Assembly: GCA_019261985.1 (NCBI GenBank)
Contig: JAFAQY010000091.1
Coordinates: 1 to 64,000 of the forward strand
Length of the DNA: 64,000 bases
DNA from: Bryobacterales bacterium
Lineage (GTDB): Bacteria; Acidobacteriota; Terriglobia; Bryobacterales; Bryobacteraceae
Direction: 5' to 3'
The first letter of the stretch is position 1. Every line of letters starts with the position of its first letter. The translations under genes and the position numbers were made by a program. The notes below the pieces were generated by a model. It did not search any database, was not told the origin of the DNA, and worked only from the letters and a program-made list of their open reading frames with translations. This document shows positions 42,830-51,725 of the stretch, in pieces.

Positions 42830-44773
42830 ATGGCAAAGTCCAAGAAGACGTCGGTTGCGCGGCGGGGTTTTTTAAAGGGCGCCGCGGCGGGGGCTGCGGC
42901 GCTGGTTGCCACGCCCGTGATCGAAGCACAAGCTCCGGCTCCGTCCGGCCGGCCGGCTGCGTTGCCTCCCACCGCGGCACAACGCGCGGTTGAGAATTCA
43001 CCGCCTCCCATCGAAGATATTCAGATTGTCGAGCGTCCCGGCTCGGATTACATGGTGGACGTGTTCAAGTCCCTCGGGATCGAGTATCTGTTTGCGACGC
43101 CGGGGTCAAGCTTCCGGGGCATTCACGAATCCGTTATCAACTACGGCGGGAACAAGCCCGAATTCATCACCTGCATGCACGAAGAGTGCTCGGTGGCGAT
43201 GGCGAACGGTTACGCCAAAATCGAGGGCAAGCCGGTGCTGGTCTGCGCCCACGGAACTGTAGGTATCCAGCATGCGGCCATGGCGATTTACAACGCCTAC
43301 TGCGATCAGGCGCCGGTATTTGTCATTGCCGGCAATATCGCCGATGCCGCCGGGAGGCGAGGGCGCGTGGAGTGGCTGCACGCTGTTCAGGATGTCGGCG
43401 CGACCGTGCGCGAATACACAAAGTGGGACGATAGCCCGGCTTCGCTGACACATTTCGGCGAGTCGGCGGTGCGAGCGTATCAACTCGCGATGACCCCGCC
43501 GACGATGCCCGTGCTGCTGGCGGCGGATGGTGTCCTTCAGGAATCGCCCGCGCCCAGCGATTTCGACTGGCGCATCCCGAAACTGCCGAAGATTACCTCG
43601 CCTTCGGGCGATCAGTCGGCAGTCAACGAATTGGCTCAGATGTTAGTCGGCGCCGAGAATCCGCTGATTGTGGCGAGCCGCTCGGCGCGCACGCCCAACG
43701 GCTTAAAGCTGCTGGTGGAGCTTGCAGAAACGCTGCAATGCGGAGTTATCGATCAGCAGCGCCGCATGAATTTCCCCACGCGGCATCCGCTGAATCAGAC
43801 GCAGCGTACGCGCGCCGCGGTTGCGGATGCAGACCTGATACTGGGCCTGGAAGTGTACGACTTCTTCGGGGTCGTGCACGCCCTCGGCGGTCAGGTCCGG
43901 GTCATTCCGCGAACGATTACGAAGCCCGGGGTAAAGCTGGTCTCGATCAGTTCGAGCGATCTCTTTTATAAGAGCAATTACCAGAACTTCCAGCGCTATC
44001 AGGATGTCGACCTGTCGATTCCCGCGGACGCCGAAGCTACGCTGCCGGCGTTGATCGAAGCGGTGAAGCGGCTGCTCACCGATGATCGCAAAAGGGCGCT
44101 CCAATCTCGCGGAGCGAAGCTTGCGGAAGCGAGCCGTCAGGCGCTGGAGCAAGCCCGTACGGCCGCATCCTATGCCTGGGACGCCAGTCCGGTCAGCACC
44201 GCGCGGCTGTCCGCGGAACTGTGGGCACAGATTAAAAACGAAGACTGGTCGCTGGTTTCTGACACATTTTGGGTAAGCAACTGGCCGCTGCGCCTGTGGG
44301 ATATGAACAAGCACTATCACTTTATCGGCGGCGCGGGTGGCGAGGGCGTGGGCTATCTGGCTCCGGCGGCGCTCGGCGCGGCCGTGGCGAATAAGAAACA
44401 CGGACGCCTCAGCGTCTCGATCCAAAGCGATGGCGACTTGATGATGGCGAACGGCGTTCTGTGGACTTCCGCGCATCACCGCATCCCGCTGCTGACGGTG
44501 ATGCACAACAATCGCGCCTATCATCAGGAGATCATGCAGCTCCAGCGCGTGGCCAACCAGCATAATCGCGGCGTGGATATCGACAAGTGCAAGATCGGCA
44601 CTGCTATTGAGAACCCGAATATCGATTACGCGAAGCTCGCGCAGAGCATGGGCGTGCAGGCGGAGGGGCCGATTACGGATCCGAAGGATCTTTCAGCGGC
44701 GATTCGGCGGGGGATTGAAGTGGTCAAGCGCGGCGATCCGTATTTGATCGACGTTGTGACGCAGCCGAGGTGA
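42830..44773 (+). CDS. Tat-exported ThDP-dependent enzyme
   Basis: 647 aa. The N-terminus has a twin-arginine signal, VARRGFLKGAAAGAAALVATPV, so it is folded in the cytoplasm and exported. The rest is a complete ThDP-dependent enzyme of the acetolactate synthase/benzoylformate decarboxylase superfamily: the activating Glu in CMHEECSVAMANGYAKIEG, a middle cofactor-like domain, and the ThDP motif from SDGDLMMANG to VMHNNRAYHQE. The FAD-binding and oxidoreductase activity cannot be judged from sequence. A ribosome site (GGAGG) precedes the ATG. Its stop is three bases before a cytochrome c gene, and the two probably work together in the periplasm. Confidence 0.88.
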   Translation: MAKSKKTSVARRGFLKGAAAGAAALVATPVIEAQAPAPSGRPAALPPTAAQRAVENSPPPIEDIQIVERPGSDYMVDVFKSLGIEYLFATPGSSFRGIHESVINYGGNKPEFITCMHEECSVAMANGYAKIEGKPVLVCAHGTVGIQHAAMAIYNAYCDQAPVFVIAGNIADAAGRRGRVEWLHAVQDVGATVREYTKWDDSPASLTHFGESAVRAYQLAMTPPTMPVLLAADGVLQESPAPSDFDWRIPKLPKITSPSGDQSAVNELAQMLVGAENPLIVASRSARTPNGLKLLVELAETLQCGVIDQQRRMNFPTRHPLNQTQRTRAAVADADLILGLEVYDFFGVVHALGGQVRVIPRTITKPGVKLVSISSSDLFYKSNYQNFQRYQDVDLSIPADAEATLPALIEAVKRLLTDDRKRALQSRGAKLAEASRQALEQARTAASYAWDASPVSTARLSAELWAQIKNEDWSLVSDTFWVSNWPLRLWDMNKHYHFIGGAGGEGVGYLAPAALGAAVANKKHGRLSVSIQSDGDLMMANGVLWTSAHHRIPLLTVMHNNRAYHQEIMQLQRVANQHNRGVDIDKCKIGTAIENPNIDYAKLAQSMGVQAEGPITDPKDLSAAIRRGIEVVKRGDPYLIDVVTQPR

Positions 44774-44776
44774 TTC

Positions 44777-45112
44777 ATGAGAATGCTCTCGATTATTCCT
44801 TTAATTGCCGTTGCCCTCTTCGCCCAATCGCCACAGGCCGGCAATGCGGAAAACGGCAAGAAACTATTCGTAAAGTTCGGCTGTTATACGTGTCACGGAT
44901 ATCAAGGCCAAGGCGGAGCGGCGGGCGCGAAGCTTGCGCCGAAGCCGATCGCCACGGCCGCGCTGATCGCTTATGTGCGCCATCCCTCCGGCAGCATGCC
45001 GCCGTTCACGGCGAAAGTGGTGAGCGACGCGGAGCTGACCGACATTCATGCCTTTCTCGCGAGCGTTCCTTCGCCGCCCGTGGCGAAGGACATTCCGCTC
45101 CTTAATCAGTGA
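44777..45112 (+). CDS. Small secreted c-type cytochrome
   Basis: 111 aa with a signal peptide (MRMLSIIPLIAVALFAQS) and one heme site, CYTCH, in GKKLFVKFGCYTCHGYQGQGG. The distal ligand is probably Met in SGSMPPFTAKVVSDAEL. The C-terminal helix is DIHAFLASVPSPP. It follows the Tat-exported ThDP enzyme by three bases and is likely its electron acceptor. Confidence 0.9.
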   Translation: MRMLSIIPLIAVALFAQSPQAGNAENGKKLFVKFGCYTCHGYQGQGGAAGAKLAPKPIATAALIAYVRHPSGSMPPFTAKVVSDAELTDIHAFLASVPSPPVAKDIPLLNQ

Positions 45113-49499: not shown

Positions 49500-51725
49500 A
49501 TGGTTATATATGCTGGCCGGGGCTGGCGCCAGAGGTGTGAGCTGAGCGTTCATTCGGGTTTGCGCTTAGGAATTATTGCCGTGGTCGTGGCGGGCGCCTT
49601 GACGGGGGCATGGGTGTACTTCAAACCTCAACGCGCGCAAGTCCCCGATCCCGCTAACGCGTATGTTGATCCGGCGGTGTGCGCCGACTGCCACGGCGAT
49701 ATTGCCGCGAAGTATGCCAAGACGGGTATGGGCCGGTCATTCCTGCGCCCAAACGCCGAGAATACGATCCAGGATTTTCCGCCCGGAAAGAAGTTCCATC
49801 ACAAAGCGTCGGACAGCTACTTCTCTATGTTCGAGCGCGGCGGGAAATTCTATCAGCGGCGCTGGCAGCTAGGGTTCGATGGGAAGGAAATCAACGTCGA
49901 CGAGAAACAAGTAGATTACGTTATTGGCTCCGGCAACCATTCGCGCACCTATCTTCATCTCACCAATCGCAACGCGCTCCAGGTTTTACCTTTGAGCTGG
50001 TACTCGGAAAAGGGAGGCTATTGGGACATGAGCCCCGCATACGATCAGCCGGATTACCCGGGATCGGTGCGCCCGGTCCACTACGAATGCATGTTCTGCC
50101 ATAACGCTTATCCGAAGATTCCGGAATCGGAGGCGCATTCCGCCGGTCCGGAAATGACTTTCACCCAACCTCTGCCTTTGGGGATCGACTGCCAGCGCTG
50201 CCATGGCCCCGGCGACCGGCATGTGCAAATAGCCTCCGCGGGCGGTAAGCCGGAAGCAATCCGTGCCGCGATTGTAAATTCGAAACGCTTGGATCCGGAC
50301 CGGCAAATGGAGGTCTGCCTGCAGTGCCACCTGGAAAGCACCAGCCTGGAACTGCCGCCCTTTATCCGGCGGTTCGATCGAAGCGCCTTTTCGTACGTGC
50401 CCGGGCAGCCTCTGGGCGATTTCGTTCTGCATTTCGATAAGGCGGGCGGTAACAACAACCGGTTTGAGATTGTAAACGCGGGTTACCGGCTTCGGGAATC
50501 GCAGTGTTTTTTGAAGAGTGAAAAGAAACTGCGCTGCACCACGTGTCACGATCCGCACGATATTCCGCGGGGGTTCGCCGCGACCGCGGGCTACAACGGC
50601 ATCTGTCAGAGCTGCCACGCCGCGGCAACGCTGAAAGCGGTCGCTTCCGTTCCGCATACCGCGGAGGCGGATTGCGTGGGCTGCCATATGCCGAAGCGCA
50701 GGACAGACGACGTGGTGCATGTGGTTATGACGGACCACTTGATTCAGCGGCGGAAACCGGAAGGGTATTTGCTGGCGGCGAAAACAGAAATCGTCGATCA
50801 CCCCGGCGGCGGATATCACGGAGAGGTTGTTCCATATTACCCTTCGCCGCTTCCCGATACTCCCGAGAACTCGCTTTACGCCGCCCTGGCGCAGATCAGA
50901 AGCGAGCGAAATTTGTCCGCCGGGGTGCCCCGCCTGGCGAGCCTGATCGATCGTTACCACCCAACGGAAGCCGGTTTTTATGCAGAACTTGGTCAAGGCT
51001 ACCGTGCGTCTCACGATTTTTCCCGCGCCATTCCCATGTTCGAAGAGGCCGCGCGCCGGGAGCCGACGGCGTTCCGGCTGGTCCAACTCGGCAACGCGCT
51101 GATGGAAGCCCGGCAGTTTCCGAAGGCTGAAGAAACGCTACGGCGAGCGATCGCGCTTGACCCTAATAACCCGACCGCATGGGGAACGCTGGGATGGACT
51201 TTGTGGCAACAGGACAAGGGAGCCGATGCGCGAACAGCATTAGATAACGCCGTGGCGTTGGATCCCGAACTCCCCGAGCTACGCAACAACTACGCGTCAA
51301 TCCTGTGGGGTTTGGGTGAACAGGCGGCGGCTGAGGCTCAGTTTCGGGAGGCGCTCCGAATTCAGCCCGGGATCGCGGAGTGGCGGTTGAATTTTGCCCG
51401 CGTGCTGGCGTCGCGCGGCGAGTTGGCGGAAGCTCGTTTCCAGTTCGAGCAATCCATTCGCCTGAATCCCGATTTGGCGGACGCCAGGTTGGATTATGGA
51501 CGGTTGCTGGCCGACCGCGGGGAACTTGTCGCGGCCGTACGCGAGTTGGAAACCGCGGTCCGTTTGCAGCCTAATCTTTTCCGCGCGCACTACGAACTAG
51601 CGATGGCTCTGGGGCGGAAGGGCGATTCCGCGGGAGCGATCGAGCACCTGCAGATCGCGGCCAGTGGGACGGACGCGGAGGCACGCGGGGCGGCGATTCA
51701 GGTGCTGCAACAGCTGCGTCGATAA
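49500..51725 (+). CDS. Heptaheme cytochrome c with C-terminal TPR domain
   Basis: 741 aa. A membrane anchor (LGIIAVVVAGALTGAWVYF) is followed by seven CxxCH sites: CADCH (61-65), CMFCH, CQRCH, CLQCH, CTTCH, CQSCH and CVGCH (about 392-396). From about residue 450 a run of tetratricopeptide repeats follows (AEETLRRAIALDPNNPTAWGTLGWTLWQQDKG, ARTALDNAVALDPELPELRNNYA). The cytochrome part resembles multiheme electron-transfer proteins; the TPR part should bind a protein partner. The first 20 residues are uncertain; a start slightly downstream is possible. Confidence 0.87.
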   Translation: MVIYAGRGWRQRCELSVHSGLRLGIIAVVVAGALTGAWVYFKPQRAQVPDPANAYVDPAVCADCHGDIAAKYAKTGMGRSFLRPNAENTIQDFPPGKKFHHKASDSYFSMFERGGKFYQRRWQLGFDGKEINVDEKQVDYVIGSGNHSRTYLHLTNRNALQVLPLSWYSEKGGYWDMSPAYDQPDYPGSVRPVHYECMFCHNAYPKIPESEAHSAGPEMTFTQPLPLGIDCQRCHGPGDRHVQIASAGGKPEAIRAAIVNSKRLDPDRQMEVCLQCHLESTSLELPPFIRRFDRSAFSYVPGQPLGDFVLHFDKAGGNNNRFEIVNAGYRLRESQCFLKSEKKLRCTTCHDPHDIPRGFAATAGYNGICQSCHAAATLKAVASVPHTAEADCVGCHMPKRRTDDVVHVVMTDHLIQRRKPEGYLLAAKTEIVDHPGGGYHGEVVPYYPSPLPDTPENSLYAALAQIRSERNLSAGVPRLASLIDRYHPTEAGFYAELGQGYRASHDFSRAIPMFEEAARREPTAFRLVQLGNALMEARQFPKAEETLRRAIALDPNNPTAWGTLGWTLWQQDKGADARTALDNAVALDPELPELRNNYASILWGLGEQAAAEAQFREALRIQPGIAEWRLNFARVLASRGELAEARFQFEQSIRLNPDLADARLDYGRLLADRGELVAAVRELETAVRLQPNLFRAHYELAMALGRKGDSAGAIEHLQIAASGTDAEARGAAIQVLQQLRR

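Follow-up and report, generated by a model that had tools for sequence, protein, structure and literature searches.

A conserved gene pair for a predicted Tat-exported ThDP enzyme and a small cytochrome c in Acidobacteriota, and its possible role in periplasmic 2-oxoacid oxidation

Two adjacent genes in the window (the whole 64-kb stretch of DNA that was analysed) encode a ThDP enzyme and a small cytochrome c (Table 1). Open reading frames, Pfam domains and motifs confirm the arrangement described in the initial annotation, in which the gene of a ThDP enzyme with a twin-arginine signal and that of a cytochrome c with a signal peptide stand three bases apart: the stop codon of the enzyme gene ends at 44773, and the ATG of the cytochrome gene begins at 44777. 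A ribosome-site-like sequence lies across the enzyme stop, ahead of the cytochrome start, which fits translational coupling, and we consider such coupling of the two genes likely from this arrangement. Apart from the one in the cytochrome gene, no C-x-x-C-H-G motif preceded by a Met was found in any frame of the 64 kb. Upstream of the pair are housekeeping genes, which we take from the list of open reading frames to be a valyl-tRNA synthetase gene and a biotin-ligase-like gene, and downstream are a Uma2-family gene and a sortilin/BNR-repeat gene, so the context within the window gives no information about a pathway. No further periplasmic oxidoreductase gene was recognised beside the pair in the window flanks examined. 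At positions 49500-51725 the window encodes a 741-aa protein whose N-terminal half carries multihaem cytochrome motifs, combined with a long TPR array.

Table 1. Positions of the gene pair and its sequence features in the window.
Feature	Position	Strand	Basis
Shine-Dalgarno-like GGAGG, 9 nt 5' of the enzyme start codon	42816..42820	+	sequence
ThDP enzyme gene, 647 aa	42830..44773	+	TPP_enzyme_N/M/C
Twin-arginine signal region ARRGFLKGAAAGAAALVATPVIEAQ, about residues 1-33	42830..42928	+	motif, alignment
Glu118, aligned to catalytic Glu47 of benzoylformate decarboxylase (BFDC)	43181..43183	+	BFDC alignment
ThDP/Mg binding motif D534-G535 ... N560-N561	44429..44512	+	alignments
GAGGTGA, ribosome-site-like, overlapping the enzyme stop, 5' of the cytochrome start	44767..44773	+	sequence
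Monohaem class-I-like cytochrome c gene, 111 aa, Sec-type signal	44777..45112	+	hydrophobic N-terminus, Pfam
Haem-binding CYTCH	44882..44896	+	C-x-x-C-H-G invariant in 89 partner cytochromes
Met74 (MP motif; MPPF), probable second axial haem ligand	44996..44998	+	alignment

The Pfam domains TPP_enzyme_N, M and C cover residues 71-642 of the enzyme. All three domains that define the ThDP superfamily (PF02775, PF02776 and PF00205) are found above the Pfam cut-offs, with scores of 78.5, 74.4 and 39.2 bits against cut-offs of 21.9, 26.8 and 30.4, and the catalytic Glu and the ThDP/Mg motif of the superfamily are present as well (E118, D534-G535 and N560). The sequence VARRGFLKGAAAGAAALVATP lies near the N-terminus, and the features of a Tat substrate are found there, namely the conserved RRGFLKGAAAGAAALV from residue 11 and a hydrophobic region, the signal being called by motif and not by a trained predictor. 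In the AlphaFold model (mean pLDDT 77.5) the signal region has low confidence, as expected of a signal. The genome carries two TatC genes. By sequence, the solved proteins closest to the enzyme are benzoylformate decarboxylases (E 1e-24 with the single sequence, 1e-45 with a profile), and the nearest folds are those of glyoxylate carboligase, the top match, and BFDC. The enzyme does not reach the cut-offs of individual family models, with 153 bits against 493 for the BFDC equivalog NF005485, 252.6 bits, far below a curated 456, for the PRK08327 equivalog NF006203, and 86.6 against 742 and 81.3 against 792 for the pyruvate oxidase models PRK08611 and PRK09124.

The partner protein matches the Pfam families Cytochrome_CBB3 (6.6e-13) and Cytochrom_C (5.4e-8) and has the characteristics of a class I cytochrome, its domain of some 80 residues carrying a CxxCH motif and a distal Met. 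The M and P of the MP motif that follows the haem motif are conserved in 100% of 89 partner cytochromes; the haem motif is invariant by construction, as these sequences were extracted by requiring C-x-x-C-H-G. Searches with the cytochrome subfamily detect the cytochrome subunit of p-cresol methylhydroxylase, with cytochrome domains of the bc1 and cbb3 types scoring better. The partner cytochrome of Caballeronia (L189:10947-11567) is a tandem duplication with two haem motifs (diheme). The window's genome also encodes an orphan cytochrome of the same subfamily at 52% identity (contig C80, L206:5134-5526), which adjoins a DUF6644 gene and another gene, both for small membrane proteins; our guess is that it could serve enzyme copies that have no cytochrome neighbor.

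Among 61 related genomes searched, full-length members with 42-67% identity are encoded in most of those of the same genus, in up to several copies per genome and five in the window's own. A genome-wide pattern scan recovered at least 548 related stretches, the best 80 of which all belong to Acidobacteriota of several subdivisions, and in a sample of 396 genomes of the phylum close members occur in a minority of genera. On plasmids, full-length exported members were found in Caballeronia zhejiangensis (50%) and Novosphingobium sp. (43%); each has the leader, and a cytochrome gene comes next in each case; the Caballeronia pair comes after a ring-hydroxylating dioxygenase cluster. No fusion of enzyme and cytochrome was seen among 161 distinct relatives, a few long open reading frames looking like N-terminal over-extensions. 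A second, distant group of ThDP proteins from Acidobacteriota (25-29% identity) has a twin-arginine-like leader (e.g. SRRGLFEALAGLGFTAAAAQSLV) and no adjacent cytochrome (L017-L028, e.g. L020:1342-3237; L173, L175-L177, L184 and L185), and is possibly an independent exported lineage.

The view that the cytochrome is a dedicated partner is supported by gene order elsewhere: a cytochrome c of the same subfamily is encoded directly downstream of the enzyme in 91 of the 114 distinct exported homologues with at least 600 bases of downstream sequence. These 91 loci represent two phyla and come from several Acidobacteriota families and the Caballeronia and Novosphingobium plasmids, and their number rules out chance pairing. 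In roughly 20% of the exported members the cytochrome neighbor is absent, and at least one further copy in the window's genome is among these. Pairwise distances between enzymes and between cytochromes are correlated (r = 0.70, with 2000 shuffles never above 0.23), indicating that the two proteins have been inherited together, a result that says nothing on contact between them. The pair is confirmed as a real, conserved unit. In terms of the wider neighborhood, genes beyond the pair vary: a tannase, TcuA/TcuC and a PcaD-like hydrolase each recur in 2-3 of the 54 loci with full room, as does a gene presumed from gene order to be dihydroxyphthalate-decarboxylase-like (2-3 of 54). None of them defines a pathway. 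The Tat signal is likewise retained in orthologues, both arginines and the F-L of RRxFL being invariant in 23 diverse members, alongside the residues of the ThDP motif, and an RR or RK motif is present in 116 of 122 homologous open reading frame models, with most exceptions being mis-called or truncated starts. Signal-less, cytoplasmic orthologues were sought within the exported clade and none was found, apparent losses of RR being truncated or mis-called starts or proteins of the sister clade. Neither finding that the initial annotation named as refuting, orthologues without a Tat signal or rare adjacency of the two genes, was thus seen for the exported clade.

The phylogeny obtained (108 rows, quick search, midpoint root, some long end branches) places the exported proteins in one clade (SH-aLRT 98), which supports a single origin of the exported form. 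The sister group consists of 15 signal-less proteins from Pseudomonadota (SH-aLRT 94), joined to the exported clade at 100. Since the cytochrome is present in early branches of the exported clade, including both Proteobacteria, the pair is probably the ancestral state, with the cytochrome secondarily absent in about a fifth of the members. An operon of convenience, in which both proteins are exported and share no functional link, would account for the multiple exported members that lack an adjacent cytochrome, but the adjacency is kept across two phyla and among paralogues, the absences are scattered over the tree and need about nine changes, and none of the 15 sister loci has an adjacent cytochrome as against 91 of 114 exported ones (Fisher p 1e-9, relatedness ignored). 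We regard this explanation as very improbable.

A second contrast between the two groups concerns aldehyde dehydrogenase. An NAD aldehyde dehydrogenase gene lies within 5 kb in only 1 of 51 exported loci and in 10 of 15 sister loci (Fisher p 1e-7, relatedness ignored, the comparison resting on 15 plasmid loci that are phylogenetically non-independent), and an alpha-hydroxy-acid oxidase gene is found near two of the sister loci. The mandelate pathway proceeds from a 2-hydroxyacid to a 2-oxoacid, an aldehyde and finally an acid, and by analogy the simplest chemistry for the sister group would be the same sequence of steps. In the exported group the NAD-linked step, which is not expected in the periplasm, appears from gene content to have been replaced by the cytochrome. 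This exchange of aldehyde dehydrogenase for cytochrome is the main new evidence for the oxidative mechanism proposed below. Three plasmid loci (L192, L201 and L202) have an additional gene, adjoining the signal-less ThDP gene or close to it, with the annotation nadC (carboxylating nicotinate-nucleotide diphosphorylase).

The active-site residues were compared among these groups. Glu118, His141 (aligned with active-site H70 of BFDC), D534-G535 and N560 are invariant in the exported group, and Glu118 is also invariant in the cytoplasmic and second twin-arginine groups. In the exported group T, N, C or S mostly stands in place of the first Gly of the usual GDG motif, as might be expected if the exported protein had given up catalysis and acted as a binding or structural protein; the remaining catalytic and cofactor residues are nevertheless invariant or nearly so across 72 diverse sequences, and we give this explanation almost no credence. 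Four further positions, Y509, H565, E567 and the C-terminal R647, vary little or not at all within the exported clade and are mostly or always replaced in the signal-less sister group, which makes them candidates for a change of chemistry.

Taken together, the observations point to a periplasmic 2-oxoacid-decarboxylating ThDP enzyme whose oxidation step reduces the partner cytochrome, a reading that we favor tentatively and place just short of an even chance. The enzyme would take up ThDP and Mg2+ and fold in the cytoplasm before export by Tat, while the cytochrome would be exported by Sec and receive its haem outside. A 2-oxoacid, probably aromatic or otherwise bulky, would be decarboxylated on ThDP. 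Cytochrome c would then oxidise the resulting electron-rich ThDP-bound intermediate one electron at a time, and no aldehyde would be released for an NAD aldehyde dehydrogenase to act on. The acyl-ThDP would then be hydrolysed to the acid, and the reduced cytochrome would hand its electrons on towards a terminal oxidase. The exported pair may in this way replace the cytoplasmic pair of decarboxylase and aldehyde dehydrogenase. The initial annotation had suggested a periplasmic 2-oxoacid or aldehyde-releasing oxidation that feeds the respiratory chain; of this, a 2-oxoacid substrate is favored by the BFDC relatives and by the cytoplasmic cousins encoded beside aldehyde dehydrogenase and sometimes alpha-hydroxy-acid oxidase genes, whereas the electron route, the particular substrate and the export are what we infer.

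Direct electron transfer from ThDP to haem has a chemical parallel, as transketolase is assayed by ferricyanide reduction, in which a one-electron acceptor oxidises the ThDP carbanion (PMC3352088). A haem within tunnelling reach could conceivably do likewise. No flavin or Fe-S relay between ThDP and haem is recognisable in the enzyme, in which a flavin site is not evident; to our knowledge natural ThDP oxidases use FAD or Fe-S, and the lack of a recognisable relay counts against the direct mechanism. That the pair represents a new kind of ThDP oxidoreductase, in which a c-type haem oxidises the decarboxylated ThDP intermediate directly in the periplasm with no flavin or Fe-S relay, is a claim that we consider rather unlikely. 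A tightly bound flavin or other additional redox cofactor could instead relay electrons to the cytochrome, as in pyruvate oxidase. Flavin-containing ThDP oxidases exist and Tat export suits cofactor-loaded proteins, but in this family the central domain, which in acetolactate synthase and pyruvate oxidase holds the FAD, shows the lowest conservation and is Gly-rich in one clade (alignment of 23 members), and the best sequence matches are of the flavin-free BFDC type; a relay of this kind seems improbable. Glyoxylate carboligase binds FAD in a non-redox role.

The main rival to oxidation on the enzyme itself is that the ThDP protein is a non-oxidative periplasmic 2-oxoacid decarboxylase, carboligase or acyloin lyase, and that the cytochrome serves another dehydrogenase of the same pathway, for example a PQQ alcohol/aldehyde dehydrogenase acting either before the ThDP protein, to produce the 2-oxoacid, or after it, to oxidise the aldehyde that it releases. 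The closest folds are indeed those of non-oxidative enzymes, the enzyme has no visible redox relay, 9 of the 54 exported loci with room have a co-oriented PQQ dehydrogenase gene at a distance of up to 5 kb, and one locus (L127) has a compact run of ThDP enzyme, cytochrome c, second cytochrome c and PQQ dehydrogenase. Set against this, the cytochrome is coupled to the ThDP gene in 80% of loci and a PQQ dehydrogenase is near in about 17%, the distances of enzyme and cytochrome track each other, and the flanks examined in the window offer no other recognised periplasmic oxidoreductase gene. We judge the non-oxidative alternative a serious one, with about a third of our confidence.

In the open-access literature searched we found no earlier description of a Tat-exported ThDP enzyme paired with a cytochrome. 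Membrane-bound keto-sugar decarboxylation in acetic acid bacteria was considered as a precedent and set aside, as one review gives no ThDP gene for it. So far as we are aware, ThDP enzymes are regarded as intracellular, and flavin or iron-sulphur relays operate in those that supply electrons to respiration. The pair suggests an undescribed route by which soil Acidobacteria, some with several copies of the enzyme per genome, and at least two Proteobacteria burn keto acids outside the inner membrane. If this is true, the metabolism of a phylum that is among the most abundant in soil would include the oxidation of keto acids in the periplasm. The pair also bears on the possibility of direct haem reduction by a ThDP intermediate, and its two genes are small and easy to express.

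Among known systems, BFDC (MdlC; 1bfd, 4q9d) resembles the enzyme in its three-domain ThDP fold, catalytic Glu, active-site His and ThDP motif, but is only about 20% identical to it and has neither a Tat signal nor a cytochrome; it works in the cytoplasm, and its partners there are NAD(P) benzaldehyde dehydrogenases. Among family models, NF006203 (PRK08327, "thiamine pyrophosphate-requiring protein") fits best across the whole catalytic region; its 571 positions align only from residue 69 of the window's enzyme onward and carry no signal region. The signal-less relatives from Pseudomonadota (for example Sulfitobacter, L204, and Agrobacterium, L203) share 31-38% identity and the same core residues, yet are encoded beside aldehyde dehydrogenase and Rieske-type oxygenase genes and have no Tat signal and no cytochrome. 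Pyruvate oxidase (PoxB) belongs to the same ThDP superfamily and feeds electrons into respiration, but works at the cytoplasmic face through an FAD relay, with quinone or oxygen as acceptor. A likeness in manner of working is offered by the flavocytochrome p-cresol methylhydroxylase (1dii), in which an enzyme is served by a dedicated small monohaem cytochrome c as acceptor, although catalysis there falls to an FAD-containing subunit that has no relationship to ThDP enzymes.
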